Positions 5,972-42,476 of a stretch of DNA of 64,000 nucleotides are shown in pieces. Position numbers and translations under genes: made by a program. The stretch is from Branchinecta lynchi (Eukaryota > Arthropoda > Branchiopoda > Anostraca > Branchinectidae): positions 1-64,000 of the forward strand of contig JAKZAP010000100.1 in assembly GCA_023053575.1 (NCBI GenBank). Reading direction: 5' to 3'. A model generated the notes under the pieces. It did no database searches, was not told where the DNA came from, and saw only the letters and a list, made by a program, of their open reading frames with translations. Position 1 is the first letter of the stretch. Every line of letters begins with the position of its first letter.

Positions 5972-5979
5972 TTCCTGTA
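5972..5979 (+). repeat. target-site duplication TTCCTGTA, left copy
   Basis: Exact 8-bp match to 42469-42476. The left flank continues as LINE endonuclease sequence and the right flank begins the terminal inverted repeat with GGG. Collapsing both copies to one gives continuous LINE coding sequence (endonuclease QE followed by LWLFE). Confidence 0.85.
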
Positions 5980-6705
5980 GGGTCGCTGTCACTACCCCCA
6001 CCCGTCAGTTCGCCCACCCGTCAGTTCGCCCACTTCCAAAATCCGACAGTTCGCCCACCCGTCAGTTCGCCCACCCGTCACTACGCCCACCCGTCACTAC
6101 GCCCACCCGTCACTACGCCCACCCGTCACTACACCCACCCGTCACTACGTCCACCCGTCAGTTCACCCACCCGTCACTACTCCCACCCGTCAGTTCGCCC
6201 ACCGTCAGTTGACCCACCCGTCAGTTCGCCCACCGTCAGTTCGCCCACCCGTCATTTGGCCCAAAAATCCGTCAGTTGACCCACCCGTCATTTCGCCTAA
6301 AAATCCGTCAGTTCGCCCAATTTTTCCGACAGTTCGCCCACCCGTCAGTTGGCCCAAAAATCCGTCAGTTGACCTATCCGTCATTTCGCCTAAAAATCCG
6401 TCAGTTCGCCCAATTTTTATGACAGTCACCCACCCGTCATTTCGCCTAAGAATCCGTCAGTTAGCCCAACTTTTCCGACATTTCGCCTACCCGTCATTTG
6501 GCCCAAAAATCCGACAGTTGGCCCAACTTTGCTAGATCAGTAACATCTATGAAGAAGGGGCGCGAACCCAGGGGAATAATCAGAAGGAGCGAACCTTTTT
6601 TCGTTTAGTTAGGGTCGATAAAAAATTTCTTTGGGTGCGACTGTTCTGTTTACTTAAAAAAAAAGATCCCGTTCACGTGAAGATGGGGGAAAAGAAAAGC
6701 TGTTC
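5980..6705 (+). repeat. left terminal inverted repeat of the 36.5-kb element
   Basis: 5980-6535 is an array of a 16-bp unit, typically GTCACTACGCCCACCC, with variants (GTCAGTTCGCCCACCC and AAAAATCC-containing forms). From about 6536 a non-repetitive inner domain follows, with CAGGGGAATAATCAG, CGTTTAGTTAGG and GTTTACTTAAA-type stretches. The inner domain matches the reverse complement of 41600-41835 with indels. Confidence 0.85.
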
Positions 6706-6927
6706 AAATAGTTTGTAACAAACTTTGTTGCTTGATAAAGAGGTTGTTGCTAACGCCGGCCGAGCTAACGAGGTCGTATCCCTGCAGGCCCCCAGTGATC
6801 AAAATATATTGTCGCAAAGTATTTTTGAAATAAAAGAACCTGAACCTGAACCTGCTAATTTTTACGGAAATTGAAAGGTTTTTGCCATGATACGCGCAAA
6901 CAGACCTATCCAAAGTTCAACATCCTA
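6706..6927. other. interior of the 36.5-kb element, no gene
   Basis: About 220 bp between the inner terminal repeat and the Gypsy-A 3' LTR. It contains AATAAAAG followed by a short GAACCT repeat near 6826-6855, which resembles a retroposon tail. No coding frame is recognisable. Confidence 0.5.
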
Positions 6928-6932
6928 GGTAG

Positions 6933-7649
6933 TGTTAAGAGGATGTGAGATCGAATCCCACTTCAGACACCATTGTTAAGAGGATGGACGAGTGGAGGCG
7001 AGGTTTAATGAAGATAAGGCTCCTGGGGTGTGGGCTGAAGACATTCTGACACCGTAGGTGCCCACTAGCCCCAGGACCAGTCAGGAAACCGGACAAAAGA
7101 GACAAGGGAAAGTCTCAGGGAATTCTATAGCTCAGCCGCAGTCAATCCAGAAATCCCTAATCAAGCTGGTTCACCCATCCTAGCGAAGCTGGAATTCACA
7201 TATCCAGTCAAGCCCGAGGCCTACTAGCCGAGATGGACCATAACGTCTATAGTTAATTTATCTCATGTAAATCATGTACAAGAGCGTGACACATATAATA
7301 TAGCACTAATGGGTCCCTAACTAAATATATAAACTGGTCCTTACCATAAATTATAATACAGAGTAACTGAGGTCTTGCTCCGACCAAGGATGAAAGAGAA
7401 CTACTTTTGGCTGCCGATTCATTACGCAGCCAAAATACTTAGAATGAAATGGATCAAAGCCTGACCTCGGATTAGCGAGCAGCTAACTGAAGCTAGGATA
7501 AAGACCGAGTGACCTATTGTCACGATGCCGGGAAATTAATGATGGTGATGGAAACCGAAGAGATATATAGAAAAGTAGGCGATAGATGGAGGGAATAACT
7601 AGGAGGACTATTGCAGAGCAAAGTGCTATGGGATGTCTCCATAACACAC
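6933..7649 (-). repeat. Gypsy-A 3' LTR
   Basis: On the minus strand the LTR begins TGTGTTATGG directly after a purine tract (AAGGGGGGGGAGG, 7651-7663) and ends CTCTTAACA, so it has TGT...ACA ends and is about 717 bp. The next 5 bases (minus sense CTACC, plus 6928-6932) are the likely target duplication; its partner has been lost. The LTR's last 71 bp recur at 25923-25993 in the opposite orientation. Near its end it carries a primer-binding-site-like TGGTGTCTGAAGTGGGAT followed by a second CTTAACA. Confidence 0.75.
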
Positions 7650-8837
7650 CTCCCCCCCTTGGGCAGAGTGGTGTACGGGCAATAAAAGATTCTACAATGT
7701 TTCCATTCCAGCCCCACCTACTAACATACCATCGATAGCTAAGCCATCGCGGCAACCCAGGTTTCTGACAGAGGGGGCAATCAAATAAGTGTGAAAAATC
7801 AAAGCCCACTCTCTGTTCAGTTAGTTCAGGGTCCTTTATTGAGCTTCAGTCCTACTGACCTTACCCTGACCACATGAACCAAACCAAAACAAATATAAAA
7901 TGCGAAATAAAGGCAGAATTAATATTTGAAGCGTCGATGCCTTTAAGTTCTAAAATAAATTAGGGGCTGGAAGAAACTTTAAAAAGGGATTATCAGGGAA
8001 ATATTGGGGAAATGTTGCCAGTACCACAACTCGTCCCAAAAGAGAAGTCTCTGAGATTTGTTAGAAATAGAAAATGGAAAAGGGAAAACTAGGAGGAATT
8101 TGGGAGGAAAGGGAAAAAGAAAGGCCGCAATTTTAAAAATTACTCCAGTTAGCTGTCGCAACGACCTAAGGTAAGACCTTGATGCAAAAAAACTTGAAGT
8201 AGAAATGGGGGAGGTCCTACGCACTCTAAGCCGCAAAATAAAGCACTAAAGGTAAGGGCACGCAAGTAATTAAAGCGCAGAACAGGCGCAAAGCATTTTT
8301 AAGAATGATGGCCGAACACACGGCGTCAATATGATTTTTGATAATATATGCATTATATGAAGAAGTATAAGGCAACAAAGCGCGGAAAACAAAAGCTAGC
8401 GGTGGCCGACAAACGGCTTCAGTCAGATCGACCGAAAAGTTGAAGGAACTGCATGAAAAGCGCGGAAGCAGAAAAAGGAATGCTTAAAGGAACAGTGCAG
8501 TTATCGCAAGGACTAGCGAAGCGAAACCGAAATCAACATATGTACAAAAGCGACTTTAAAGAGGGCCTACACAATTAAACTAAGAAGGGGGGGGGGGGGA
8601 CGAACATATATATACCTAACCGGAAATATTTATAGCCGCACTTGCGAGCGGGAAAACGCGGACCTAACACTCCTACCTAAATATTTACATTTCCACTTGG
8701 CTGTCGTGGTGTCCAGTCCAGGTGATACGGATTGATGGAGGTGGATTTGGAGGATTTGACTAGTGATGGGGGTTGAGTTGATGGTGGAATAGTTGTTGGT
8801 TGTTGGTTTAAAGTTGGAAATGGCGTTGTTGATGACT
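7650..8837 (-). other. Gypsy-A 3' noncoding region with polypurine tract
   Basis: About 1.2 kb between the pol stop and the 3' LTR. The polypurine tract that primes plus-strand DNA lies at 7651-7663. A G12 run at 8588-8600 stands out on the plus strand. Short open frames here have no domain; the one overlapping the pol end (8630-8944) could be frameshifted pol tail. Confidence 0.6.
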
Positions 8838-11800
8838 CTACGAGCTTGTATCGCTGGAGTGAGGATACGTAGTAGAGTAGGTTCTTCCTTTCTTAGTTGA
8901 TTGTTGCGGGTAAGTTGGTTTGGTGGATTTAGGTCGTGGCACATCGTGTGAGCGGGACCGTGATGCGGTACGGAAGTCGGCGGACTGGTACCGATCTGGT
9001 GGTCTCTGCAGGCGGTTGGATTTCCGGAGGGGAAGGGTAAGCTCGACCCGTGGAGGGGAGACAGGAGAATGAGCGTCTGGAGCGCTGGGTGAGGAGGGCG
9101 GATACGGATGGCAAGGCGTGCGTGTCATAGGTGGCGTAGTGACGTGCAAGGTTGGCGGCGTCGGTGGCGTGACGTACAAGGTTGGTGGCGTTGGTGGCGT
9201 GATGATGACTGTCGGGGGCGTCGACGGCGTTACGGGCTCCGTTGGCGGCGTTGGCGATGTGAGTTGTCCCATCGGTGGCGCTGTGACGCTCGGAGACGCT
9301 GGGACCTCAACGCCGTTGCTTCTTCTGTCGCTACCTGCGTGCCGTGCGGAAAAGTCGTGACAGAAAATTTCGTCGGAGATTTCAGATAGAGAATTTGAAC
9401 TAGATTCGGATGGCTCTGAATTAAAAGTTAGCTGATAGAGGTCCGACTGGTTTGGGTTGAACTTGAAATTTCTGAATTTGCTTTCTGATATTTTAGGTGT
9501 GCTAGGAGTTGAATTTGAAAATGAGTGCTGTACCGGGACTGAGAGTCGGTCCGGCAAGCTTGCGTAAGTAGTATTCGAAGCATTGATAAACTCAAAATCG
9601 TTAGTCACAAGGGACAGTGACGGACTTGAGATTTGACTATCTGAACTGAGGTTATTAGAAGAAACGGCACGGGGCAGCGACTGGCGAGGGTCCACCAGCG
9701 GCGACGACACATGCAAGAGAAAAGATGCCTGCTCGGAGGGACACTCCGGCGTCAATGGCCGGGGCCAATCGCTTCTCATAGTATCAGCTTGCTCGGTATA
9801 CTCGATTTGGTAAGGGGAATAAGAAAGGAAAGTGCTGTTCTGGGGAGGGAGAGTGGTAGGGGTTATTGAGGCGGGCCTTAACACCGGCGCCTCGCAAAAG
9901 ACAGTTGTCTCGAGAAGATTTGACTCACTGTCAAAATGTGGCGGCGATATACGAGGGCACATTGGTGCTTCTGCCGTTGGTCGTAGTAAGAAAGATTCTG
10001 GGATAGGGTTGTCGAGGTGGCAATAATTCGAGGCCCTTGGTGTTTGCGGCAGAAGTAGAGGCGCGTTACACAGCGCTACCAAGTCCAACGGTACTGAACA
10101 TGGAGCAGATTGCTCCGTAATCGCTGCGATTTGGGGTAAAACCTGGCGTTCACTAGCCGGCACGGCAGGCAAATTTGTCGATTCAGCCTTGGGTTCTAAT
10201 ACCCATGGGGATCTTAACCTAGACCCCTCCAAACGGTCAAAATGGACGACCTGCGTCTTTGATCCGAACTTTTGGATCTCATAATTCCGGCCTTCATTCA
10301 TAACGCGAATAACGCGGTATGGTCCATCTGCGCGCTCTTTACGAAGTTTTGAACCTATACCAGGGGCAGGGGGGACTTTGAGAAAAACAATATCACCAGG
10401 CCTATGTGGGGTGAATTTTTCGCAATCTTTATCGTACTGGGATTTCTGCTTATGTTTTGAAACATGAATATTGGCAGAAATCTGGTCATGTGCTATTTTC
10501 ATTCTGTTTAGGATCTCAGATTTGTAGTTCTCCATAGAATCATAAAACAGGCGACGTGGTGCCACATCGAAAAGGGAAGGCATGGGATCACGCAAAAACA
10601 TAGCATAAAACGGGGTCTCCTTAGTAGACACGTTATGTGCGGTATTCAACCAAAATATCGCAAACGGCAAGTGTTCGTCCCAGTCATCTCGACTGGGGGA
10701 GAGGTACTGGGAAAGAATGTCTTTCACAGTCCGGTGCATTCTCTCGACCTGACCGTTGCAATTTGGACGGAAAGAAGTAGTGGTGAGGTGGTGCATGCTC
10801 ATGACTTTCATAATTTCTTCAAACATTTTTGATGTGAAATTAGAGCCTCGATCTGTTAAAATCTGGCTCGGAAAACCATGAGGGAGAAATACTTTTTCGA
10901 TTAAAGCCCGGGCGACAACATGAGTTTGTTGGTTTGGGAGGGGAATGCCGAACATGAATTTTGTGAAATGACAGCAAACTGTCAAAATAACGGAATTGTC
11001 ATTACGGCTTCTTGGGAGGGGGCCAACAATATCGATGGAGACAAGCTCCATAGGGCCAGATGGAACCGGGATTATACCTAGCGGGGCTATGGGAGTCCTA
11101 TTGGGGACCTTACGTTTCAGACAGTCGACCCATACTGAAACGTGATGTCGGGCCCTAGTGTACATGTTGGGGAACCACACGGAAAATCTCATTTTGTGGA
11201 GCATTTTGGAAAGACCAAAATGTCCAGAAAAGGCATGAAAATGTTCCAAGACCTGGGGCACAAGACTGTCAGGGATAACAGGCACGACGTGAACCATGTC
11301 ACGGTACGTAGCAGAAGGTGAAAAAATAAAACACAAAATTTCATCTTCAACACAAAAGGACTCGACACTTCTTTCAAGTATAGAGTAATCGGGAGGGAGC
11401 TCTGCTGTGCCTGCTAAACGCTGAACCATTCCTTTACAGAATATATCACCAGACTGTGCCCTTCGAATTCCATCTAAACCTATCTCTTGGGGAAGTTCAG
11501 ATAGCTGAACAACATTCACCAAGGGTTGGGGGTCAGTTTTCTCGCCTACTGGAGCTTCTACCAGGCGGGATAACGCATCCCCGAACATTTCCTTGCCTGG
11601 CATGTAATCGACACGAAAAGTGTACTCCTGAAGCTCCAGGCAAATCCTAGCCAATTTTCCGTTAGGGCAGTCCATGAACGGCAAGGCTTTCAAGGGCTGA
11701 TGGTCCGTTCGGACCAGAAAGGGTTTAGACACTAAGTAGTGTCTATACTTCTTCACAAACTCCCAAAGGGCTACAGCTTCCCTTTTGGTCGTGGAATATC

Positions 11801-13715
11801 TTTGTTCGACTGGGGAAAGAACGCGACTGGCATATGCTATGGCTCTCTCTTGCCCATTCTGGACCTGAGAAAGACAAGCGCCTATGGCAAAACCCGAACT
11901 GTCACATGTGAGAATGAATTCGGATCCCTCAAAATCGGGATACGAGAGGATAGGCTCTGAAAGTAAACTGCTTCGCAGTGTCTCAAAGGCCGTGATCTGG
12001 GGTTCGCAAAATTCAAAGGCCCGACCCTTACGTGTTAAATCAGAAAGAGGTTTTGCAATCTTTGCAAAACCGTCAACAAATTTGCGAAAATAGCTTAGCA
12101 ATGCTAAGCTGGACCTCAATTCCGCAATATTTTGGGGATAACGGAGGTTTTTAACCGCAGAAAGTTTGTCGGGATCCGGCTGGATACCGTCCGCAGAGAT
12201 CACGTGGCCTAAAAAGGTAAGCTTGGGGACGCAAAATTCACATTTGGAGGGTTTGAGCTTTAGGTTGTGGTCACGGAACCGGGTAAAAACTTCTCGAAGG
12301 ACAGAAAAATGCTCAGGGTGGTCTTTGGTGCCCACGCCCGTATCATCCAACATGGCAAACGTATTTAACCCCAAAATATCGCGAAGAACAATTTCTATCA
12401 TCCGCTCGCAAGTGGCTGGGGCATTAGAGAGACCGAAACCCATGCGGCGATATTGGTATAGACCGAAGGGAGTATTAATGGCAGTTTTCTCGCGATGTGG
12501 AGAGTGGACGCTGGTTTGGAGGAAACCTTGTACGAGATCCATTTTTGAAAAAACCGTGAAGCCATGCATTCTGTCGAGGATGTCATCGATACGCGGAAGG
12601 GAATAACTATCAAACTTAGTTATTTTGTTCAAACGCCGGTAATCGTTCACAAGCCGATATGAACCATCCTTTTTCTTAACTAGAGATACTGGTGAAGCCC
12701 AGGGGCTGCAACTCTCTTCTAAAACACCCTGTCGGAGCATGGCTTCAACTCGTGTTTTCAGTTCACTTTGAAGTTGGATAGGTACTCGGTAGGGGCGTTG
12801 GCGGATGGGGGGGTGGTCACCGGTCTCGATGCGATGGGTGACAACAGTACAGTCGCCCAAATCATCATCAGACCTGGCAAAAATGGTCCGGAATTCCCAC
12901 AATATGTCTTCCATTTCAGTCTTATAAGTGGGGGGAATGTGATCAAGTGGAAAATTTTTCAGGTAATCATCCCTCGAAATGTCGCTCCATCCGATTTTTA
13001 CAGAGTTTACCATTGACTCGAACAATGGTTCGACCAGGTCGTTAACCAGATCAGAAGCGGTTGCATCGGAGGGGAGGGGGTCAATCGAGAGGAGGGATAG
13101 GTCACCTTTCCGTACTCGTACTTTCGTCAGAGAATGGTTCTCTGCGATAAATACGACAGTACCATCTGGGGAAATAGGGACCAACTGTGGAAGAACCATA
13201 ATATTTCGGGCTTGTAAAGCTTCATTGCCCTCAATCAATATGTTTTTCGTACCCGTGGGTAGGCCTAAAACACTGCAACTAATGGGTCTTGCATAATGCG
13301 GTCTTATGCGGTAAGCGCACTTCGACGGGACTAATTTTTCTCCGATACCTATACTACAAACTCTAGGTTCCCTTGTCGAAGGCTGGGACTGACCGGGGAA
13401 TTTGAGGGAGAAAATATCGGTGGTTGGGTCTAACATCAATCCTGCGGACCGAATGAACGGCCGGCCGACCAAAGCACCGAAACATAGCCTAGGGATCACC
13501 AAAAATTTCTCCACAAACGTTCGACCTAATAAAGAAAATTGTACAGTAACCTCGGAGGTGACTGTAAGCGGACCACACAATGTAGACGCTGAAATGCATG
13601 TTTTCGATCGGTCAATGATGCAGCTCTGAATATTCGCAGCAGTATCCTCAGACATGAGGTTGCACTCGGCACCGGTATCGTACAAAGTCTTGACACGGTA
13701 AGTCCCAAAACACAA
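8838..13715 (-). CDS. pol: Gypsy-A Pol polyprotein: protease, RT, RNase H, integrase, long C-terminal tail
   Basis: One uninterrupted 1625-codon frame. In order: aspartic protease with DTGA near residues 13-16; RT at roughly 290-480, with the catalytic motif as AMLDD near 455 (M replaces the usual Y-x-DD tyrosine region); RNase H from TCDSSG near 610; integrase zinc finger near 850-910; integrase core with D near 895, D near 953 and E near 988 (35 residues between the last two); GPY/F motif RADGPYRV near 1130. Then comes an unusual tail of about 450 residues, rich in Ser and Pro, with five TPPT-type 12-residue repeats near 1490-1540. In the zinc finger the second CxxC cysteine looks replaced (CLKRK). 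The domain order protease-RT-RNase H-integrase is that of Ty3/Gypsy. The frame is open upstream of the first methionine, so Pol is probably made by readthrough or frameshift from gag. Confidence 0.9.
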   Translation of the reverse strand: MCFGTYRVKTLYDTGAECNLMSEDTAANIQSCIIDRSKTCISASTLCGPLTVTSEVTVQFSLLGRTFVEKFLVIPRLCFGALVGRPFIRSAGLMLDPTTDIFSLKFPGQSQPSTREPRVCSIGIGEKLVPSKCAYRIRPHYARPISCSVLGLPTGTKNILIEGNEALQARNIMVLPQLVPISPDGTVVFIAENHSLTKVRVRKGDLSLLSIDPLPSDATASDLVNDLVEPLFESMVNSVKIGWSDISRDDYLKNFPLDHIPPTYKTEMEDILWEFRTIFARSDDDLGDCTVVTHRIETGDHPPIRQRPYRVPIQLQSELKTRVEAMLRQGVLEESCSPWASPVSLVKKKDGSYRLVNDYRRLNKITKFDSYSLPRIDDILDRMHGFTVFSKMDLVQGFLQTSVHSPHREKTAINTPFGLYQYRRMGFGLSNAPATCERMIEIVLRDILGLNTFAMLDDTGVGTKDHPEHFSVLREVFTRFRDHNLKLKPSKCEFCVPKLTFLGHVISADGIQPDPDKLSAVKNLRYPQNIAELRSSLALLSYFRKFVDGFAKIAKPLSDLTRKGRAFEFCEPQITAFETLRSSLLSEPILSYPDFEGSEFILTCDSSGFAIGACLSQVQNGQERAIAYASRVLSPVEQRYSTTKREAVALWEFVKKYRHYLVSKPFLVRTDHQPLKALPFMDCPNGKLARICLELQEYTFRVDYMPGKEMFGDALSRLVEAPVGEKTDPQPLVNVVQLSELPQEIGLDGIRRAQSGDIFCKGMVQRLAGTAELPPDYSILERSVESFCVEDEILCFIFSPSATYRDMVHVVPVIPDSLVPQVLEHFHAFSGHFGLSKMLHKMRFSVWFPNMYTRARHHVSVWVDCLKRKVPNRTPIAPLGIIPVPSGPMELVSIDIVGPLPRSRNDNSVILTVCCHFTKFMFGIPLPNQQTHVVARALIEKVFLPHGFPSQILTDRGSNFTSKMFEEIMKVMSMHHLTTTSFRPNCNGQVERMHRTVKDILSQYLSPSRDDWDEHLPFAIFWLNTAHNVSTKETPFYAMFLRDPMPSLFDVAPRRLFYDSMENYKSEILNRMKIAHDQISANIHVSKHKQKSQYDKDCEKFTPHRPGDIVFLKVPPAPGIGSKLRKERADGPYRVIRVMNEGRNYEIQKFGSKTQVVHFDRLEGSRLRSPWVLEPKAESTNLPAVPASERQVLPQIAAITEQSAPCSVPLDLVALCNAPLLLPQTPRASNYCHLDNPIPESFLLRPTAEAPMCPRISPPHFDSESNLLETTVFCEAPVLRPASITPTTLPPQNSTFLSYSPYQIEYTEQADTMRSDWPRPLTPECPSEQASFLLHVSSPLVDPRQSLPRAVSSNNLSSDSQISSPSLSLVTNDFEFINASNTTYASLPDRLSVPVQHSFSNSTPSTPKISESKFRNFKFNPNQSDLYQLTFNSEPSESSSNSLSEISDEIFCHDFSARHAGSDRRSNGVEVPASPSVTAPPMGQLTSPTPPTEPVTPSTPPTVIITPPTPPTLYVTPPTPPTLHVTTPPMTRTPCHPYPPSSPSAPDAHSPVSPPRVELTLPLRKSNRLQRPPDRYQSADFRTASRSRSHDVPRPKSTKPTYPQQSTKKGRTYSTTYPHSSDTSS

Positions 13716-13783
13716 ATTTACAAAAGACAGATTTGAACTGCCCTGTACCGTGCAAACTAAACAAGACTCAGGAGGAGAGTGCT

Positions 13784-15181
13784 CTAGCCTAAACGAGGGT
13801 TTTGCGACCTGTTCGGGCCTCTCATTAGGCTGGGCGAATGAGGGACATTGTGGCGCGGGTTCTGGAACCGGTATTGGTGTGGGGTAGAAGGACCGGTCCG
13901 TCGCGGAGCCCCAAAGTAGCGCGGACCTTGCACGTTTCCCTGGTTAAAAGGGCGAAAACCGCGGGCTTTGTCCGGGCACCATTTTTCTTCGTGACCGACA
14001 CGCAAGCAAAAATCACAAATTGGCTGGTCTCCAAAGGACCTCGAAGATGTAGGCGCGGCAGGTCTTTCATTTCCGGGAAGAGTAGTTACAGTGTCGGCTT
14101 TGACGGTATAAATCGATCGTGACTGGGAAAGTGCCGCCTCATGGTAATCCCTGGCTGAGCGGTCAGCCCTAACCTGTCGCAAAACCTCTATTGCCTGTGG
14201 CAGACTAGTCAGACTAGTCTTTTTAGCTCATCATAGTAAGGGACGGGGAGGCCTCTGATGAATTCGGTCAAGTAGACCCTAAGAACCTCACTCTTCGTCC
14301 TGTCAGCCGGAGTATAAGAGTAACGCAAATCCAAAGACTTTTGAATCAACTGACCATAAAGGTCAGGCGTCATGCTTTCCGGCTGATAAATCACTCGTTC
14401 CTCAGCCAGACGAAAACTCCTCCTCCCTGCCCCGACAGCGGAGCTGGAGGGAAGCTTCGAATGCTGCCCATGAAACTTTCTGTAGAGCGTCCAAACTTTC
14501 AACCCAACTGGTCAACGGTGAAACCAGCCGAGAAGAAAGGATTGCGAACTGCTCTGGCCATGCAACAACTCCACAAAAAGAAAATTTGTGTCGTGCTTGC
14601 TCAAGCCAGGATGCCGCGCTTGTTTCCCCGTTGAAAGTAGGGATTTCTTTGGATATCTCTAGCTTAAGCCGTAGCCGAGCTAGAGTGACTTCTGGGTTTT
14701 CTTCCCGAGCCGGTGGATCGTTGAAAACAATTAAGTCTTGGTGAGCCGGCTGGGGTGGCGCTGGGTTCGGGTTTATGGCAGGGGCATAGGGACGACAGTT
14801 GGGCATCGTATCAAATGATGGTTGAGGAGGAGACGGTCGGGTATGAATAAACTGTTGGGAATATTGTTGGGGACCGTAAAAGGATGTTTGGGGTAAATAC
14901 ATGTTGGTTGGGTGGGTGGGGACTTGTTGTGCATAAAAGTGGTCATGGTATTCTTGTGGTTGGTGAAAATCAGCTCGATGGGCCGGGTATTGGTAGGCGG
15001 GATATTGCGGTACTTGTGGTCGGTAATCAGGCATACACTGAGACCACCGAGACAAAGGTTCTGCCGGAGGATTGTCAAATTGTTGCGAACATTCATCTTC
15101 AAAAAATAACCGAGATGCGAGGGGTCGCGATGTCTGGGGTCGAGGGGCAGGGAAACGAGAAGGATCAAAAAAGTTTTCCAT
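13784..15181 (-). pseudogene. gag: Gypsy-A gag, broken by two frameshifts
   Basis: Three overlapping minus-strand frames read as one protein. 14402-15181 starts MENFFDPSRF, is Pro/Gln/Tyr-rich and enters a retrotransposon gag core (ISKEIPTFNGETSAASWLEQARHKF region). 14209-14502 continues the core. 13784-14182 carries a CCHC zinc knuckle, CDFCLRVGHEEKWC (CX2CX4HX4C), and a basic Pro/Arg tail. One frame change is near 14420-14480. The other is near 14200-14220, at a repeated AGACTAGTC. Capsid-forming gag is needed for retrotransposition, so this copy looks non-autonomous unless the breaks are sequencing errors. Confidence 0.8.
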
Positions 15182-15393
15182 TTCCGAGAAAAAAAAACGA
15201 GACCAGAATAATCAAGGGTATGAATGTCCGCAATAACAAAAACCAATCCAAATTGCCAAAAACACCAAAAATATTCGCTCAAAAATTCATGAGAGAAAGT
15301 TCTGACAAAAAAAAATATCGAAAAATGTGAAAATAACGCTTACAAAAATATATGGTTTACAAAGACAATGGGAACAAGCTCGACTGAACGTGT
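15182..15393 (-). other. Gypsy-A leader, gag-proximal part
   Basis: Noncoding AT-rich leader upstream of the gag start. It is cut at its upstream side by Gypsy-B at the 4-bp site GTTT. The other part of the same leader is at 25995-27606. Together they make a leader of about 1.8 kb. Confidence 0.65.
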
Positions 15394-15740
15394 AAACTAT
15401 AACGGGGTTTCTTCTGATGTTATAAGCCGTTATCTTTGATCTAATAGGTAGCGTTCTTGAGGCTTATGATCGAACACACTGTTCTTTATTCCCAGAGAGA
15501 TAGCGGGACACAGCTCTTTATTGCAAGAAGTACAACGTAACACTAAATACAAAATGTAAAACGATGGCCCAAGACCCCCATCCGGAAACCCTGATTTTCC
15601 AGCTGTAACCCCCAACTGTAAAGGCTCTGAGGAAACATAAATTGCTGGGCTGGAGACGGATTAATGTGACAGGGCAATTTGAGTCCAGCGTGAGAGCCGT
15701 CTGTTTCAACCCTGCATCTTTTCCCCAGATACTTGTTATA
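15394..15740 (-). repeat. Gypsy-B 3' LTR with flanking TSD
   Basis: The LTR (15398-15740, 343 bp) begins TATAAC and ends GTTATA on the minus strand, giving 6-bp inverted ends instead of TG...CA. It appears identical to 27607-27949. The TSD copy (minus GTTT, plus AAAC) is 15394-15397. A polypurine tract containing GGGGGGTGGG (15746-15757 region) lies just inside. Two AATAAA polyadenylation signals are present. Confidence 0.85.
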
Positions 15741-15935
15741 GAATTCCCACCCCCCAAAATTTGTCCCAACAAATTCGCAAACAATTAATCACTCATTCTA
15801 CAAATGGTAAATAATACATAGCACTTGCAACGATAAAATACAGCAAAGTGAATAATCGGCATTGAGTCTGAAACAGTTAAAAATTTTAGAGGATAGTAAA
15901 ATGGGTCAAAAGAATGTCGTACTCTTAAGTGTAAC

Positions 15936-31934: not shown

Positions 31935-32140
31935 TGCAGGCCCCGTTGGTGTAGTGGTCTAAGATGTTGCAACGTCTTAGATCAACCACTTCATCAATGA
32001 TGTCGTGAGATCGAATCCCGCCATCAACTTGAGGTTAATGGTGAGGATGGCGAACAAAAAACTCAGAGGGTTTCCTCCCCTCACGGGGCACCCCAGACAC
32101 ACCATAAAAAATAATAAGACGACAAATAAACATCTTCAAT
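31935..32140 (+). mobile_element. tRNA-derived SINE
   Basis: The head has an RNA polymerase III A box (TGGTGTAGTGGTCTA, about 31947-31961) and a B box (GAGATCGAATCCC, about 32006-32018), with spacing longer than a plain tRNA. A unique body follows (CTCACGGGGCACCCCAGAC) with an A-rich tail near 32105-32140. It lies in the gap between the terminal repeat and the next Polinton gene, so it is an insertion into the Polinton or a passenger. Confidence 0.6.
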
Positions 32141-32175
32141 CTTCAAAGTCTGGGGTGGGAGGTTTTGCAAAAATT

Positions 32176-32598: not shown

Positions 32599-32735
32599 TT
32601 ATTATATAATAAAATTGTTTCGAAAAATTATTTGATTTTTTCGAATTTCCACACACCCACCATCTAGGCTACTTTTACAGTATGATTCTCTTTTTTTCGA
32701 GCTTGTGAGTCAAAGTTAAAAAAAATATATGATTT

Positions 32736-32940
32736 TTGTCACATGAAGAGTAGTACAGAAAGTGGGATTCCAGTACACACACATTTGTCAAATGAAGAGT
32801 AGTACAGAAAGTGGGATTCCAGTACACACACATTTGTCACATGAAGAGTAGTACAGAAAGTGGGATTCCAGTACACACACATTTGTCACATGAAGAGTAG
32901 TGAAGAATGTGCGAAACCCGTGTACACATTTTTCTCACAG
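32736..32940. repeat. minisatellite, 49-bp unit, about four copies
   Basis: Unit starts at 32738, 32787, 32836 and 32885 (exactly 49 bp). Each contains GAAGAGTAGTACAGAAAGTGG and CAGTACACACAC. It lies between the divergent membrane-protein and polymerase genes, where a regulatory region or origin could be. Confidence 0.9.
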
Positions 32941-33031
32941 AGTAGTAAGGTAATAGAAATTCAATGATTTTCTTTACGGCTGACAAAACTCAGACGGGAG
33001 AAATTTATTAATAAAAATGTTCCCCTATTAA

Positions 33032-34900
33032 ATGATGAATACTGCAGAGGTTATTCAGCTTTGTAAAAAGGTTATATCAAACAACAAAGCGGTTATACAA
33101 AGATTATCGCTATACACATATAATGAACTGCGGACTTATGCGAAAATTAATAAAATCAAAACAAATGGAGCTAAGAAACATGAAATAACAAATAATATAA
33201 TAAACCATCTTAACAAGTATATTTTGATAGCTGAAGATAAAATTAAAATTGAACGCAGAAACGAAAGAACTCATAATAAGAACAGACCATCCGACTACAA
33301 ACCAGAACCGAGATTACGAACCATTCTGGAAGATGAGATAAAAGAAAATAATATCACCATTACAAAACTAAAACAAGAATACAATGATAACAAAGAAAAA
33401 GAGACAAGTGAATTAAAGAAATTTCTGAAAAACAAGAACCTATCAACTCGCGGAAACCGAGAAGAAGTACTAAAAAGAGTTGGAGAATACTATAATAATA
33501 TTATTACCAAACATAAAGATTCCGTACAGAAAAATAGAGATATCATAAGAGATCAAACAGAAAGACGTGATAACAGTAGACAGAAACCAATTGGTTTATC
33601 CACTCTCTTTATAAATAAGAAAAAAATCAAAGAAGAAAAATTAATTCCTGATCATTTATTTATAACGGAAGAAGAACAGCAGCCTACTATTTCTAGGGAA
33701 ACGGAAAACCTTTATACCATCAACGTTTCTATTGAAAGCAATGGAAGAGAAAAAGATACTCTTATTGCTTTTACTTTCGCAGATTTACAGCGGCGAATGA
33801 ATGAACTTTATCAATATAGAGTTCAGTTTGTAACTCGTGTTACATTCTATAGACAGGAAAATGATGAAGAAGTAGTAGTATTTTACAACAGTACTTCTTG
33901 GATTTTAAATAAAAATAGCATTCTTACTCATAATCATTTGGATGATAATAACAAGAGACTTAGTTCTTTAAGTAATACCCCTCGATCTGGGCTACAATTT
34001 AGTCGGTATGAAGGAATTGATTATAGGATGACACGAATAGAATCTTACATGGGAGGAACGTTTAAAATACTGCCAGATTTCGCAAAAAATAAAAAAGCGT
34101 GTATAAATATAAAAAATAACGACCAGAAATGTTTCCTTTGGTCTATCTTAGCAAATCTACATCCAGCTAAGGATCATGTTGATAGACTATCAAATTATAA
34201 ACAATATGAAAACGAATTTGATTTCAAAGCGATTACTAACTTCCCGATGGATACACAAGATATACACACATTTGAAAATAAATATAACATTAAGATTTGC
34301 TTATTTCAAATTGATAAAGAGAAAATAATCAGAAGTCATATACTAAAAAGTACAATCAATGGCAAAACAGCTAAACATGTTATTAATTTATTGTATTTCG
34401 ATAATCATTACGTACTGGTAAAGGATCTGAGCAAACTAGTCAGCACTCAAATATCTACAAGACAAAAAAAGACATACCTCTGCACTTTTTGCGGAAGGCA
34501 TTTTACAAAAGAAGAACAATATGAAAAACATGAGAGTAAAAATAATTGCGAAGATCCTGATATTATAATGCCTCCTGAAGGTTCAAGTATACAATATAAA
34601 AATATTGCAAAACAAATGAAAGTACCTTATTGCATAATAGCCGACTTTGAGTCTTATAACGAAGAGTACAATCAAGTAAACGGGAAGAAAACAATAAAAG
34701 TGGCCAAACAGAAACCATTTGCTTACGCATTTCAGGTATGCTGTTCCTTTGATACAAACCAGAACAAATACTATGACTATTTCGGTGAAGACGCTGCAAA
34801 ACATTTTGTTAAAACCGTTACAAAAGTATCCACAGAAATTGCAAACAAATATGAAAGCAGACAAAGAAACCATACTTATACCAATGCAGAAACCATCTGA
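33032..34900 (+). CDS. Polinton protein-primed DNA polymerase B, N-terminal part (truncated)
   Basis: 622 codons, then broken. Two SAP-like DNA-binding helices: residues about 25-62 (LYTYNELRTYAKINKI) and about 128-155 (ELKKFLKNKNLSTRGNREEVL). Then the characteristic Polinton region KCFLWSILANLHPAKD near 365, a CTFCGRHF...H...C zinc finger near 483-505, and exonuclease motif I as IIADFES near 538. Exo II/III and all polymerase palm motifs are missing; complete Polinton polymerases are at least twice this length. The start is TATTAAATG. The break at about 34893-34905 runs straight into the outer element's repeat. It cannot polymerise DNA. Confidence 0.88.
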   Translation: MMNTAEVIQLCKKVISNNKAVIQRLSLYTYNELRTYAKINKIKTNGAKKHEITNNIINHLNKYILIAEDKIKIERRNERTHNKNRPSDYKPEPRLRTILEDEIKENNITITKLKQEYNDNKEKETSELKKFLKNKNLSTRGNREEVLKRVGEYYNNIITKHKDSVQKNRDIIRDQTERRDNSRQKPIGLSTLFINKKKIKEEKLIPDHLFITEEEQQPTISRETENLYTINVSIESNGREKDTLIAFTFADLQRRMNELYQYRVQFVTRVTFYRQENDEEVVVFYNSTSWILNKNSILTHNHLDDNNKRLSSLSNTPRSGLQFSRYEGIDYRMTRIESYMGGTFKILPDFAKNKKACINIKNNDQKCFLWSILANLHPAKDHVDRLSNYKQYENEFDFKAITNFPMDTQDIHTFENKYNIKICLFQIDKEKIIRSHILKSTINGKTAKHVINLLYFDNHYVLVKDLSKLVSTQISTRQKKTYLCTFCGRHFTKEEQYEKHESKNNCEDPDIIMPPEGSSIQYKNIAKQMKVPYCIIADFESYNEEYNQVNGKKTIKVAKQKPFAYAFQVCCSFDTNQNKYYDYFGEDAAKHFVKTVTKVSTEIANKYESRQRNHTYTNAETI

Positions 34901-36735
34901 GAAAACCAAGTTCAGATATACCTTTATAAGCCATTTCTATTTTGACGATTCCTGCTTTACATCTGCCAAATTTCCGGTTTCGGCCAAATTCCGAGTGAAC
35001 TACTTGTCCAGCAAAAAAAGGACAGTCCAGAAACGAAGTCAGTGTATCTCCTTATCCCTATAAAGAACATCTAATATATTCAAATAAAACTTTAACTAAT
35101 ACAATTTCCGGTTTCAACCGGATTCCAGACTAATTATATGTCCGGGTAAACATGAGTGTCATATACAGACTCAGCGTCTTTTCTTAGCCCTAAATCTGTC
35201 ATCTAATCAACTTCAAACGAAACTTTCGCTTTTAACAAATTTTCCGGTTTGGCCAGATTCCGGGCGAACTAGTTGTTTGACGAGAAAATGGTTTTCATCG
35301 TCGCATTCAGTATGCCTTCTTTTTCCATAATAGAACATCTAATCAACTTCAAAGAAAACTTTTAATTCTAACCAACCAACCTTGCCGTATCCGGCAAGAA
35401 AATGGTTTTCACCATCGTGTTCAGCATGTCTTTTTACCCCATAATCGACTATCACATTAGCTGTTACAAAAATTTTGTGTTGCCCCTTAATTTGACCCCC
35501 CCCCCCCCTCCCTAAATGTAGGACTACAGAGCCCATTCCTTTCGAGATTTACCGTGCTGACAGACGGACAGACGGACGGAAGATTACTCCATTGGAGACA
35601 CCCTTTCTCTTTTAATTAGGATCACCACGAGTTGATTATTAGTGCAGCTTTTATGTTTTCGTAAAGAAGAGTATGAAGATGGGTGCATAAAAATAGTTGT
35701 AAGCTCAAATGGCACTTGCAGCTGTATGTAGTAGGTAAGGGGTCTGTCAGATGTTCGGGTCCCGATATGCCTGCCAACTTTCGTCTTGAAAAACGCCATC
35801 ACAGGAATTCTGGAAGGCCCCCCTCCACCTCCTACCCCCAAGTGTCCTGCTCCAGTCCAATTGTGCAAACGATTTATCTAGAATAAATGCTTGTTCTTCC
35901 CAGCAAGTTTAACTCCGATCCCTCCATTCTATCCGTTTCTTGAAATTTTCGACCACCCCTCCATCAACTCCCCCATAGCTGTTGAGTCCGCTATCATAAG
36001 TTAAGATGAACCATTTGATAAAAAGCGCTTTCCGACTTTGCAGTTAACATGCGCACTTTAAGGGAGCTGGAACTTCATTTGTAAGCAAAACCCATGAAAA
36101 TGTATATTTCGCTTAAAAGCATTTTCTTACTTTACAATCAAGATTGGTACTTTAAGGAATAGTCGGATTTGAAAAGTGGCGATTTCTAAGCCAAACTTCT
36201 CGAATGTCTAATATTCCAGCCAAGATCGTCCTAGCACATCTAAGTGCCTTAAATCGTGACAACGGGAATTCCGACCCCCCTGCCCTCCCCTCAAACTCCC
36301 CCCACAATCGCCGAAGTCAATCCAGTTGTGAAAAAGATTTATCCAGAGCATCTTTTTCTTACTCCCAGAAAGTTCCATCCCAATCTCTCCAGTATCAGCC
36401 TTTCACGTATCCCCCCCCCATCTTCCTGACAAGAAAAAGATCCCCAGAGACATGTCCTTTGTTTAATTATGAAATTTCACTCAAATCTATCACCCGTTCC
36501 GAAGTTACGCATAACTCGATATTCCAGATTCCCCTCCCTCCAGTCCCTCACGTCCTAGCACATCTGGAAGTACCCTAAATCGGAACCGTGTGAAAAACTG
36601 CCCTAATTTTCCAGATTCCTCCGCCCCCTACTCCCCCGCAGATGGTCGGATCGAGAAACTGATTATTTCCAGGTTAGTTTGGTTGGTCCCTGATAAGTCT
36701 GCCCAGTTTCATCGTCCTAGTACATCTGGAAGTAC
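34901..36735. repeat. outer-element interior: degenerate repeats
   Basis: Units of about 140 bp containing TTCCGG-(T)-GGCC-GATTCCGG and AACATCTAATCAACTTCAA run at 34905-35480. 35590-35690 resembles the inner terminal-repeat domain (TTTTAATTAGG...GAGTATGAAGATGGG). 36190-36735 holds two copies of a unit with CTAGCACATCTGGAAGTACCCTA, related in inverse orientation to 52130-53060. ACAGACGGAC-type tails occur at 35560. No protein domain seen. Confidence 0.65.
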
Positions 36736-36739
36736 CCTA

Positions 36740-37950
36740 GCTCGAAAAAGTGTGAAACAAGACCAAAGGTTTCGATGGGATCCCAAAAATTCAATATCTG
36801 ATCCAGGCAACTGGGTCTTGTCTTAGCCAGATCCACTCATCGCCAGACTCCTTGAACATTTTTACAATTAAAATCAGAAACAGATTAAGGCCAACTAGCT
36901 AATCATCTGAGAAAAACTTCCTGCCACTACCGCCAATTTCCCGATTTCGGCCAAACTCCAGAACTAATTGTCCGGCGAAAAAAATAAAGCTCAAAAATGA
37001 ACTCAGGATATCTTCTTTCTCCAATAATGAACATCTAATCAACTTCAAATAAAAATTTAACTTATAACAAATTTTCCGACTCCAGCCGGATTCCGGTCGA
37101 ACTATATGTCTGGGTAAAATATGATTGTCACACACGGATTCAGCATCTCTTCTTACCCCTAAATCGGCTATCTAATCAACTAGAAATAAAACTTTAACTT
37201 CTACCAATTTTCCGGTTTTGGCCGGATTCCGGGCGAACTATATGTCCAGATAGAAAATTGTTTTCACGTAAGCGTTCAGTATGTCTTCTTGCCCTAAATC
37301 AAACATCTAATCAACTTCAACTAAAGTTTTTAATTTTAACAAACTTTCCGGTTTGGGCCGGATTCCGGGCGAACAACTTTTCCGTCGAGAAAATGGTTTT
37401 CACCACCGTGTTCAGCGTGTCTTCCTACCCATAGATCGATCATCTAATCAACTTAAAATAAAACTTTTACTTTTAACAAACTTTCCGGTTTGGGCCGGAT
37501 TCCCGGCGAACTACTTTTCGGTCGAGAAAATGGTTTTCACCATCGTCTTCAGCATGTCTTCCTACCCCTAAATCGAACATCTAATCAACTTAATATAAAA
37601 CTTTTACTTTTAACAAACTTTCCGGTTTTGACCGGATTCCGGGCGAACTACTGGTTCGATGACAAAATGGTTTTTACCATCGTGTTCAGCATGTCTTCTT
37701 ACCCCATAATCGACTATCACATTAGCTGTTTCAAAATATTTTGTTCGCCCCTTAATTTGAAACCCCTCCCCACCCCTAAATGTAGGGCTACAATGCCCAT
37801 CTACGAAATTGACTGGTCCACCCAACGAATCCTCACACCAAGTTTCATCAAAATATCTCATTCCCTTCGAGAGTTATCGTGCTTACAGACGGACGGACGG
37901 ACAACTTTTGCGATGTCATAGGTATCCCTCCACTTACGTTTTGGGATCCA
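36740..37950 (+). repeat. fold-back arm, left
   Basis: Arm of a large imperfect inverted repeat. Landmarks from outside to centre: ACCAAAGGTTTCGATGGGAT (36762), several TTCCGG/GGATTCCGGG units (37070-37640), GACGGACGGACGGAC (37890) and GGTATCCCTCCACTTACG (37921). All recur in reverse order and complement at 38450-39600. Confidence 0.75.
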
Positions 37951-38449
37951 AAAAAAAACCGGACAGACCGACAGACGGAATTACGATAGGTGTATTGCAT
38001 TTGAGACAGATGCTACAAGTGCCATACAAAGAAATTTAGACAGGTCATATTAAAATTTCAGTACCTCCATTTGATCTTGCGAAAATTGTGAATATTCCTT
38101 GAAAAACTGTGAAAAATTGCAAAAAATTAGAGATAAAGTTGAAAAATAAGACGTTGAGCTAAAATGTGTTGTTTTTTACAAGTTGTCATGTGTCAGACAA
38201 CAACTGAGGAACTCACTCAATTCCCTCACTCACCGTGTATCACTGACCAGAATCATGTCCAACAAGTAGTCCAGTCTTGTTACATTTAAAGCTCGATTTT
38301 TTTTTACATGTAATTTGACGTTGCCATATGCACTAACCGAGTGAGTTTCGAGTCCCGGTGTCTCCAATCACGGATATCGAACAGATCTAGTAAAAAGTCG
38401 CTTTTATTGAAATCGAGACTGGTCCAACTTTCGCGTATGAATGCTTCCT

Positions 38450-39600
38450 TTGTGGGATCCCAAAACGTAAGTGGAGGGATACCTATGACATCGTAAAGTT
38501 GTCTGTCTGTCCGTCCGTCTGTTAGCAGGACAACTCTCGAAGGGGTTGAGATATTTTGATCAAACTTGGCACGAAGAGTCTTTAGGTCAAAATACTGGTC
38601 AAGTTCGAAGATGGGCCATGTAGCTCTATATTTAGGGGTGGGGGAAGGGGTTTGAAATTAAGGGGAACACAAAACACTTTTTAAAAGCTAATGAAATAGT
38701 CGAATTAAGGGTAAGGAGACATGCTGAATCCGAATATGAAGTTTTTTTTCTCGCCGGACAAATAGTTCACCCGGAATCCGGCGAAACCGGAATATTTGTG
38801 AAAAGTAATATGAAGTTGATTGGAGGTTTGATTTAGGGGCAAGGAAACGTGCAGAGTCCGAATATAAAAATTATTTTCTCGCCGGACAATTAGTTCGGCA
38901 GGAATCCGGCCAAAACCGGAGAATTTGTTTAAAGTAAAAGTTTTATTTAAATTTGATAAGATGTTCGATTTGCGGGTAAGTAGACATGCTGGATTCGCAT
39001 ATGACAACTATTTTCTCACCGGACGTATAATAATAATAATAATAATATAATTCAAAAATAAGGCACATGGCCTCTACAAAAGATCGCTCGGAATCCGGCT
39101 GAAACCGGAAAATTTGTTAAAAGTAAAATTTTAATTGCAAGTTGATTGCAATTAATGCAAAAATAAGGCACATGGCCTCTACAAATAGATCGCTCGGAAT
39201 CCGGCTGAAAACGGAAAATTTGTTGAAAGTAAAATTTTAATTGCAAGTTGATTAGAGGTTGGATTTAAGGAGACATGCTGAATTCGTTTTTTGAGCTTTA
39301 TTTTTTCGCAGGACAAGTAGTTCCGGAATTCCGCCGAAACCGGAAAATTGGCAGAAGTAAGGCAGGAAGTGTCGATCTGCTTCGTCAAAATAGATATGAC
39401 TTAAAGGGGTAAACACACATGCTGAATCCATATCTGAACTTGGTTTTTTCATATGATTAGCTATTTTGCCTTAATCTTTTTCTAAACTTTAATAGTAAAA
39501 GTGTTCAAGGAGTCTGGCGAAAACTGGATTGGCGAAGACAAGACCCAATTGTCTGGATCAAATTTGAACATTTGGGATCCCATCGAAACCTTTGGTCTTG
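38450..39600 (-). repeat. fold-back arm, right
   Basis: Complement of 36740-37950, from CGTAAGTGGAGGGATACC near 38467 to ATCCCATCGAAACCTTTGGT near 39580. It includes five TTCCGG-type units and two near-identical about 130-bp units at 39055-39250. The spacer 37951-38449 contains no recognisable gene. Confidence 0.75.
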
Positions 39601-41574
39601 TTAATACCGTTCCACTTCTTACCTTATTGACTACAACAGTAGGCTTTCAATTAAAAAAAGAGGTAAATACGTAAAATAAAGTAACATGGATCACGTGCAT
39701 ATCCTCAACAAAGCTCCAGCACCCGGTGATGTTGCAGACCGATATAGCCTACTGATTCTACAAAGTTACTATGCATACCTGACTGACACCTGGTGTACGA
39801 GGGTTTCATAGGTAAGAAACCCCTATGTTTAGGCCAAGCACTATCATTTATGCTAAGCTTATTGTAAATGTGGTTAACTGTGTACTCTTACTGTGACAAA
39901 TAAACCAGAAGTAGAATTTGTATTAAATTGATTGATCATTGATAAACCAAGGCAGGGTCTTTATACAATCCAGCATTAACTTCTGGTTTACTTGTCGCAG
40001 TAATACTCTCTTGTATCAAATCTGACCGTTGCGTAAAGTTTATAAACAACTATAAACAACAGTTTATAAACTCCGAATTATGCTTATGGTCATATACCTA
40101 TGACAAATATTATATAGTATATTACAAACCTGTAATATAGATTACAGGTTTGTTTCCTTCCCCAAAGTTGAACCAGAGGATTGACAGCCTGACGAGGACC
40201 CTTGCCAAGAAGGGCCGAAATATCGCTGATGAAGAATCGTAGCTGACGTATCCGTTGTAAAAATTGTTTGAATAAATATGCCTACGACTTCGCAAAAGTT
40301 ATCCTTCTGTCCGTCCGTCCGTCTGTTAGCACGATAAATCTCGAAAGGGTAGAGATATTTTCTTGAAAATTGTTATGAGGATCTATTGGGTCAACGTACA
40401 GGTCAAGTTCGTAGATGAGCTATGTAGCCCCATACCTAGGGGTGAGGGAGGGATTTCAAATTAAGGGACGAAAACAAATGTTTTAAAAAGCAAATAAGAT
40501 AGTTGATATAGGGGAAAGGAGACATGCTGAATCCAAATCTGAAACTGATTTTCTCGCCGAACAATTAGTTCGTCCTGAACCCGGCCGAAGCCAGAAAATT
40601 TATTAAAGGTAAAAGTTTTATTTGAAGTTGATTAAACGCTTCGTTTAGGGGCAACAAAACATGCTGAATCCGTATATGATAATTCTTTTCTACCCGGCCG
40701 AGTATTTCGCCCGGAATCCGGCCAAAACCGGAAAAAAAATGGTAAAAGTGTAAGTTTTATTTGAAGTTGATTAGATAGATACAAATCATATACGACTAGA
40801 ACAGGTTTTAAAACAAGGGTGCAATGGTACCCGTCGTTCGAGAAAAAATCATGTCACCGCCCTGACGGGGTATTGAAACCTGATTTAAACGACTCGGCTT
40901 GCCTTTGACTGGGACGGATTTACGATGATATTAAAAAAAAAAATTCAAACGACTCGGAGATTGTGTTTGACAGATGTCACCCCCACTTATCCCCCCCCCT
41001 TTCGGGCCATCCCTGGCCCCAAACTGGCAGTAGATATTGCAGTAAGCAACCCTGGGTGTGTCCTTGGTCAACAGCACAAGGGACTCAAGGTTGGAAAAGC
41101 TGTTCTGTACGAATCTACGATCATATTTTGGAAAAGCTTTTGAATATTCGGGTTTGCTGGGTTGAAAGCCGTCGGCGAAAGAAATTGATAATTCTCACAT
41201 ACCTTGAATCACATAACGTTGATGAGCAGTTTAAATGTTGTTTGTGGGCTACGTAAATTTAGGAAAAAAAAGTTTTCCCACTGACAAGAGGACACTTTCC
41301 GTACAGAGTAGAGACTCATACATTGCAGATAGCTTGGGAATATACTCGGAGATAGTACACGGAAGCTCGGTAGTAAAGTCCTGCATTATATTATTTCTAT
41401 TATGCTTTTACTTTCCATTTCCGTGTGAACGACTCTAAATCGTATTGCCAATCAGAACCCTTTACTGCTCGTTACTTTATTTTTTCCTTTTTTTTTTCAT
41501 CTTTTAGATTTTCCAACTGAATTTGCCGCAGAATCTCGCAAAGCTTCCCACGTTTCTGACTAAATGTCTACGTA
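39601..41574. other. outer-element interior, no gene
   Basis: Further TTCCGG-type units at 40500-40770. A perfect 13-bp-arm hairpin (ACAAACCTGTAAT / ATTACAGGTTTGT) lies at about 40124-40153. A hammerhead-like core follows at 40189-40220. Retroposon-like sequence with AATAAACCAGAAG lies near 39900. 40800-41574 shows nothing recognisable. Confidence 0.5.
40189..40220 (+). ncRNA. hammerhead-ribozyme-like catalytic core (partial)
   Basis: CTGACGA is followed by a stem of seven pairs with one bulge (GGaCCCTT / AAGGGCC) and then GAAA, which are the two conserved core strands and helix II of a hammerhead. Helices I and III and the cleavage triplet are not evident nearby. Penelope-like and other retroelements carry such motifs; this may be a decayed remnant. 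Confidence 0.25.
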
Positions 41575-42468
41575 ATTGTCGGCTCCTTCTGATTATTCCC
41601 CTGGGGTCTCGGTGCTTTTTCATATAATACCTTTTTTAAACCCATCTTCATATCCTTCTTTACGTAAACATAAAAGTTGCACCCATAAGCATCTCGTGTT
41701 GACCTAATTAAACGAGGAAGGTCGCCTCTGTTTGAGTAATCTTCTGGGATTGCGTCCCTTTCTTTACTGACAGGGCCGAGTTGAGCTGATTATTCCCCTG
41801 TGGTCGCGGCACTTTTTCGTGGATTTAATGATCCTGCAAAATTGGGTCAACTGTCGGATTTTTAAATTGGGCGAAGTGATGGATGTCGGGAGTGGGTCAA
41901 CTGACGGATTTCAAGGAGTGGGCCAACTGACGGATTTTTGGGCCAAATGACGGGTGGGCGAACTGTCGGAAAAATTGGGCGAACTGACGGGGAGTGGGCC
42001 AAATGACAGATTTCAAGGGTGGGTCAACTGACGGATTTCAAGAGTGGGCGAACTGACGGATTTCAGGAGTGGGCCAACTGACGTATTTTTGGGTCAAATG
42101 ACGGGTGGGCGAACTGTCGGAAAAGTTGGCCGAACTGACGGATTTTTGGGCGAAATGACGGGTGGGCGAACTGACGGTAGGCGAACTGACGGTGGGCGTA
42201 GTGACGGGTGGGCGTAGTGACGGGTGGGCGTAGTGACGGGTGGGCGTTGTGACGGGTGGGCGTTGTGACGGGTGGCCGTTGTGACGGGTGGGCGTAGTGA
42301 CGGGTGGGCGAAGTGACGGGTGGGTGTAGTGACGGGTGGGTGAACTGTCGGAAAAAGTGGGCGAACTAACGTTTAGGCGAACTGTCGGAAAAAGTGGGCG
42401 AACTGACGGATTTTATAGGCGAAGTGACGGGTGGGCGAAATGACGGGTGGGCGTAGTGACGGGTTCCC
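41575..42468 (-). repeat. right terminal inverted repeat of the 36.5-kb element
   Basis: 41835-42468 is the 16-bp minisatellite in the opposite orientation to the left end (GGGTGGGCGTAGTGAC). 41575-41834 is the inner domain. The CAGGGGAATAATCAG box is present twice here (41590 and 41790, both read on minus) but once on the left, so the right inner domain is partly duplicated. Confidence 0.85.
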
Positions 42469-42476
42469 TTCCTGTA
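42469..42476 (+). repeat. target-site duplication TTCCTGTA, right copy
   Basis: Exact partner of 5972-5979. It is followed directly by the LINE endonuclease N-terminus. Confidence 0.85.

Follow-up and report, generated by a model that had tools for sequence, protein, structure and literature searches.

A fold-back-type transposon family with tandem-repeat arms in Branchinecta lynchi, and a copy enlarged by nested gypsy and Polinton elements

The first 64,000 bases of the 72,572-base contig C99 of Branchinecta lynchi (hereafter, the window) contain a DNA element at positions 5980-42468, the outer element, which carries long inverted arms of short tandem repeats and is inserted in a long interspersed nuclear element (LINE). 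By its structure, which follows a plan that is already known, the outer element is an ~8-kb non-autonomous transposon of the fold-back type, and the copy in the window is a family member of this size enlarged by a 28-kb nest that consists of two gypsy elements and one Polinton. Across the assembly that we searched (575.7 Mb, 216 contigs), the family has inserted repeatedly with exact target duplications and fixed ends, and the coding genes of the window copy are of nested origin. The outer element is probably a copy of a non-autonomous DNA transposon, cut and pasted by a transposase made elsewhere through 8-bp, sometimes 9-bp, staggered cuts.

Insertion in the LINE and copies across the genome

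A preliminary description of the window, made from the letters, had placed an element of 36.5 kb in a LINE with an exact 8-bp duplication, and had stated that collapsing the insertion restores the LINE frame. Both statements hold: TTCCTGTA, present four times on the plus strand of the window, stands at both ends of the outer element, and the minus-strand LINE frame is regained once the insert and one copy of TTCCTGTA are deleted (...EYDVLF/IQELWLFESD...). The element begins with GGGTCGCTGTCACTAC at 5980 and ends with GTAGTGACGGGTTCCC at 42468; in the inward reading its right end begins GGGAACCCGTCACTAC. The features concerned are as follows.

5972..5979, no strand: target duplication, left copy, 8 bp, TTCCTGTA
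42469..42476, no strand: target duplication, right copy, 8 bp, TTCCTGTA
3285..5971, minus strand: LINE, interrupted by the outer element; reverse transcriptase matched in 3285-4130
42477..43556, minus strand: continuation of this LINE on its upstream side; listed frames without Pfam assignment
5980..6932, plus strand: left body of the outer element, present in other copies
34893..42468, plus strand: right body of the outer element, present in other copies with some internal gaps

An empty LINE site was looked for with a 360-base query made of the two joined flanks. With the window's own two matches set aside, 11 other genomic matches were obtained, of which eight run continuously over the junction (85-94% identity) and three stop short of it; the eight are paralogous empty sites.

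Other copies with the same ends are abundant; their absence would have refuted the preliminary description, which passes this check. The exact left-end pattern (17 bases) occurs 290 times in the assembly and the right-end pattern (20 bases) 112 times, whereas the same patterns read backwards gave no match each; positions were listed for 100 of the 290 left and 100 of the 112 right patterns. In twenty 10-kb stretches read at the best left-end matches, the usual layout comprises the equivalent of window positions 5980-6932, ~1.14 kb absent from the window, and then the equivalent of 34891 or 34893 to 42468 with gaps; in stretch L018 the match is confined to the left body, and some of the other stretches are cut short or interrupted. 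The complete copies L012, L019 and L026 measure 8,426, 7,676 and 8,090 bp and hold no frame of more than 200 amino acids, their frames of at least 142 amino acids consisting of arm repeats. The longer non-arm frames in the 20 stretches, judged by eye, belong to a Polinton (in L013), to LINE-like insertions or to flanking DNA, and no transposase-like frame of the family was found in the copies read, most frames being judged by eye. On contigs C1-C8, 33 end pairs lie 105 bp to 16.5 kb apart, and 21 of them span 7-10 kb. The 36.5 kb of the preliminary description are thus a real insertion, but not the usual unit of the family.

The family includes two diverged subfamilies, A and B. When every fourth of 80 further listed left ends was sampled, four of the 20 had the window-type interior (L033, L034, L036, L040) and eight a type B interior (L030, L035, L037, L039, L043, L044, L046, L048), one (L038) had part of the type B interior, and seven matched neither interior well (L029, L031, L032, L041, L042, L045, L047). 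Two fully read type B copies are 7,169 and 7,070 bp long.

Duplications were examined in 42 copies with both ends, the window included. Eight of the 20 stretches hold both end motifs, and six of these carry an exact 8-bp duplication, with none in L010 and L025; 30 further pairs gave 19 exact 8-bp duplications, three of 9 bp and eight cases of neither; and 8-bp duplications are also present in two type B copies, a 105-bp copy and the window. Among the 33 end pairs, the flanks of 30 were checked directly, one via L010 and one via L112, and the pair at C1:8286152, which has its right end in common with a nearer pair, was not flank-checked. Overall, 29 of the 42 copies have an exact 8-bp and three an exact 9-bp duplication (32/42 together), at a chance expectation for an exact 8-bp match of ~1.5e-5 per copy; the preliminary description had proposed checking other copies for 8-bp duplications, and they bear it out. 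Any target preference is weak at most, for T at the second and third positions (14/28 each). Two copies on different chromosomes, at C3 (3957372 / 3965440) and C2 (5025170 / 5017215), have the same right flank, AGATTGTTTAGT, and one of them has no left duplication to match it; copies may thus have undergone exchange or duplication among themselves. For Galileo, the excerpted source describes chimeric copies whose duplications do not match (PMC3573991).

Three arrays or repeats outside the outer element were also recorded. A 297-bp unit at window positions 459-1603 is present in 3.9 tandem copies of 98% identity and has an 83% relative within the left-end copy L029. A pair of 428-bp repeats lies at 52128-53028, with 67-77% relatives inside the family copies L016, L020, L032, L045, L049, L050 and L113. 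About 9 kb of CTGT/AGAC-type arrays with alternating orientation occupy 55001-64000, up to the window end.

Arms and terminal boxes

The arms consist of a 16-bp repeat unit, with variants of 15, 20, 21 and 25 bp.

5980..6583, plus strand: left arm; terminal motif GGGTCGC, then CGTCAnT boxes, all pointing the same way, at ~16-bp spacing
41786..42468, minus strand: right arm; the same array type inverted, terminal motif GGGAACC in the inward reading

The arrays were first described as being in opposite orientation and alignable with each other, along with the inner domain, and the alignments agree: among the window's self-matches of at least 100 bp outside the simple arrays, positions 5988-6525 match 42460-41919 at 78.9% and 6002-6583 match 42388-41786 at 77.1%, both inverted, and the global arm alignment extends beyond the repeats into the inner domain. 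In addition, the right body at 34919-41744 is pieced together from relatives of a ~137-bp unit and of a 160-bp segment, some direct and some inverted.

Between copies, each arm is highly conserved. With L018 left out (its inner anchor is missing) and right arms trimmed at a fixed 894 bp, left arms are on average 97.4% alike among 20 copies (190 pairs) and right arms 97.4% among eight copies (28 pairs). The left and right arm of one copy, in contrast, are only 72.5-77.9% alike (8/8 copies), the same likeness as that of left and right arms taken from different copies (mean, 76.4%). Since the arms within a copy are no closer than those between copies, the two ends are distinct and inherited as such, and left and right arms evolve separately, with no evening-out within a copy. 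A fold-back element whose arms are kept alike within each copy was accordingly rejected.

The repeats of the two subfamilies have in common a core, not the spacers. In an unanchored count, CGTCAGTT is the commonest 8-mer common to the arms of type A (24 occurrences) and type B (77), and type A spacer words such as CCACCCGT are not among the words most shared with type B. Since the spacer, too, is well conserved within type A, the core stands out only when A and B are compared. Boxes are unidirectional in each arm, at 31-51 per kb forward and none in reverse, compared with 0.34 per kb on both strands of flanking DNA, in a count that uses a motif derived from the same arms. In each of the six ends analysed, which represent both subfamilies, boxes one to three begin at +8, +24 and +40; the next exact box begins at +81 if the end is a left one and at +61 if it is a right one, in types A and B alike. 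Two copies are very short. The 105-bp copy, located inside another array and flanked exactly by the duplication CACTCTTG, retains little more than the termini, with 54 outer bp from the left end and 50 from the right. In a 170-bp copy, flanked by the duplication GACGGGCT, the boxes lie at 8/24/49 and at 8/24/40/61/82/103. Most simply, the boxes would be read as putative transposase sites, the outermost being the most important.

Several observations weigh against this reading or against a transposon moved in trans. Within type A the spacer is conserved along with the core, and recent growth of the array could explain part of the pattern; the repeat units were chosen by their core, which makes its information content high by construction; the six ends belong to three copies only, two of them 93-95% alike; and the 105-bp and 170-bp copies may have shrunk after insertion. 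In addition, 10 of the 42 copies have no duplication, most frames were assessed by eye and not against Pfam, and the searches made tied no transposase to the family.

The nested block of the window copy

The window copy differs from the usual layout by a block that replaces the ~1.14 kb of family sequence kept in other copies.

6933..34892, no strand: nested block
6933..7004, plus strand: 72-bp stretch belonging to the rearranged nest, with an inverted repeat at 25922-25993 (98.6%)
8838..15211, minus strand: gypsy-type element 1; frame 8838-13943 with reverse transcriptase, ribonuclease H (RNase H) and integrase
14402-15211, minus strand: presumed gag of gypsy-type element 1, no Pfam match
15398..18414, minus strand: gypsy element 2, downstream half; RNase H, integrase and long terminal repeat (LTR) 15398-15746
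27601..31138, plus strand: gypsy element 2, upstream half; LTR 27601-27949, protease and reverse transcriptase
18409..18414, no strand: Polinton 6-bp duplication GACGTC, with its partner at 31133-31138
18415..19043, plus strand: Polinton terminal repeat, starting AGTAGT
31139..31767, plus strand: the other Polinton terminal repeat, starting AGTAGT
19003..25724, minus strand: Polinton genes, whole block (capsid, integrase, protease-like, packaging ATPase)
19003-20367, minus strand: Polinton capsid, double jelly roll
22360-23352, minus strand: Polinton integrase, rve, retroviral-type, E = 5.6e-15
23447-23860, minus strand: Polinton protease-like frame, match below its cut-off
25047-25724, minus strand: Polinton packaging ATPase
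33032..34892, plus strand: long Polinton frame, cut short here, SAP domains matched

The two halves of gypsy element 2 lie on opposite strands and their LTRs are 99.4% alike. Each half adjoins a Polinton end that starts with AGTAGT and has the same GACGTC duplication, which indicates that the gypsy gene was the insertion site of the Polinton; the Polinton terminal repeats are 96.7% alike across a 635-bp match that includes the duplication. The long frame at 33032-34892, for which a Pfam scan of the piece gave no polymerase match, is presumably the DNA polymerase, judging by its position and motifs. The opposite orientation of the gypsy halves, the 72-bp inverted repeat and the cut Polinton frame point to a later inversion and loss, as read from the present arrangement.

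That the Polinton is a passenger is indicated by another family copy, in stretch L013 (G000:C20:24832418-24842417), which holds a Polinton with the same end at a different insertion point, with an uninterrupted frame of 1,352 amino acids where that of the window is cut short; one Polinton end lies in the stretch read. Given the separate Polinton ends and duplication and the other insertion point in L013, the integrase of the window belongs to the passenger. The preliminary description had seen no transposase, and here it needs correction: the span contains the rve integrase frame and the gypsy integrases, all of them in nested elements. With its 6-bp duplication, (AGT)2 end, capsid, rve integrase and packaging ATPase, the nested element has the marks of a Polinton/Maverick, split and incomplete; Mavericks start with (AGT)2 and make 6-bp duplications, according to the excerpted source (PMC8097293).

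The presence of capsid, integrase and packaging ATPase within the span could also be taken to mean that the whole outer element is a giant Polinton/Maverick, with the minisatellite arms as its own terminal repeats and its own integrase. This is highly improbable and was rejected, as the Polinton is bounded by its own ends, at 18415 and 31139, with a 6-bp duplication, and has a different insertion point in L013; besides the window, Polinton genes were found in only 1 of the 20 same-arm stretches (L013), and the outer duplications measure 8 or 9 bp instead of the 6 bp of Mavericks (PMC8097293). It is also very unlikely that misassembly accounts for part of the window layout. Although the window's contig is only 72.6 kb long, the contig end within the window consists of long simple arrays and the nested block is rearranged, both outer junctions carry the exact duplication, the LINE restored there is intact elsewhere, and members of the family were also recorded on contigs that measure 18-37 Mb.

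Related elements, candidate enzymes and mechanism

The comparison with fold-back and TU-like elements made at the outset remains apt: the outer element has a tandem-repeat outer domain, a unique inner domain and 8-bp duplications, and no transposase of its own was found. Long inverted arms of short tandem repeats and duplications in independent copies are features of fold-back (FB-like) elements. Sea-urchin TU elements likewise have a tandem-repeat outer arm domain, a unique inner domain and an 8-bp duplication, and are not known to have a transposase; the 8-bp duplication and the short-repeat outer domain are common to TU and the outer element, as far as the general description of TU goes. 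TU elements of sea urchins are cited in the excerpted report on Tetris (PMC4079207). A search for COX1 gave 15 scattered matches in the assembly and no mitochondrial contig; in the best piece, which is nuclear and decayed, AAA stands for a conserved lysine and AGA for a conserved serine, in agreement with the invertebrate mitochondrial code (code 5) but not with that of echinoderms (code 9) or vertebrates. Going by this one piece, the host is probably a protostome, and an echinoderm host was rejected.

The closest published designs that we found, going by excerpts of the cited papers, are Tm1 (PMC3169594) and Tetris (PMC4079207). Tm1, a Mutator/Foldback family from root-knot nematodes, resembles the outer element in its short asymmetric terminal motifs outside the repeats, its arms of short tandem units, its miniature copies and the lack of a clear target consensus in the excerpted account, but its unit is 14 bp instead of 16 bp and its arms are 93% alike within a copy versus 72-78% here (PMC3169594); near-identical arms are a common, not a strictly defining, feature. 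Tetris of Drosophila virilis has tandem repeats in its arms, 8-10-bp duplications and, in the excerpted account, no coding capacity and no autonomous copy, but differs in its ~220-bp repeat (TIR-220) and in the finding there of only three complete copies (PMC4079207). Galileo, a member of the P superfamily, has long arms with internal repeats (PMC3573991) but makes a 7-bp duplication and has a known transposase (PMC3573991, PMC3688188).

Which enzyme moves the family was considered for several superfamilies. A Merlin-type transposase is unlikely, even though Merlin elements, with terminal repeats that measure 24-462 bp, have 5'-GG ends and make duplications of 8 or 9 bp in the excerpted source (PMC8101967), and the outer element has GGG ends and duplications of 8 bp in 29 copies and 9 bp in three; its arms are longer than those of Merlin, and a non-exhaustive first-pass search of the assembly for the Merlin transposase domain DDE_Tnp_IS1595 (PF12762) gave 0 candidates, although the enzyme may have been lost. 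A Mutator-type transposase, as in Tm1, is somewhat unlikely. It is favoured by the asymmetric 7-bp terminal motifs, ~14-bp repeat unit and 8-10-bp duplications of Tm1 (PMC3169594) and by Mutator-like element (MULE) genes in the assembly, with 22 matches above the cut-off. However, Tm1 duplications are mostly 9 bp (PMC3169594), whereas a length of 8 bp prevails in this family, and the 18 MULE matches whose contigs carry listed ends are all at least 21 kb from such an end; the remaining four are on contigs without a listed end motif. Eight matches to KDZ (Zisupton group) were also obtained, two of them on contigs with listed ends and at least 1.5 Mb from one. Distances were taken to 80 left and 92 right listed places and then to 100 of each, with the same nearest distances, and no KDZ or MULE gene was seen inside family copies among the copies listed.

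The hAT and P transposases both make duplications of ~8 bp, and a transposase of either type is conceivable for the family, if on the doubtful side. The duplication length fits, and the P superfamily includes Galileo with its long internally repeated arms (PMC3573991); against this, no terminal motif typical of hAT or P elements was recognised.

We favour the reading in which a transposase supplied in trans would excise family members and reinsert them at 8-bp, sometimes 9-bp, staggered cuts. It would bind the repeated CGTCAnT boxes, those at +8, +24 and +40 forming the essential end and the rest of the array offering extra binding sites, which would help to set a short recognition sequence apart from the rest of a large genome. 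For Galileo, extra sites for the DNA-binding domain of the transposase have been identified in tandem repeats (excerpt of PMC3688188). The 28-kb interior was acquired later, through gypsy insertions, insertion of the Polinton into one gypsy element, and then inversion and loss, the Polinton integrase not being the mover of the outer element. A bolder proposal, which we hold to be quite unlikely, is that the boxes work as a modular code for the ends, in which the three-box terminus suffices and the rest serves as a reservoir, with an enzyme from a superfamily not yet tied to fold-back elements.

For annotators, the window copy is a caution that a set of capsid and integrase genes within an element need not be that element's own. 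Some fold-back elements with tandem-repeat arms, Tetris among them, are still without a known enzyme in the excerpted literature (PMC4079207), and a modular end code, if true, would explain the lasting failure to find the transposase of TU-like elements. With a large family, two diverged subfamilies and copies of 105 and 170 bp, the recognition by the enzyme can be narrowed to a few boxes of fixed spacing, and the architecture of the ends is clear enough to make a search for the enzyme tractable.

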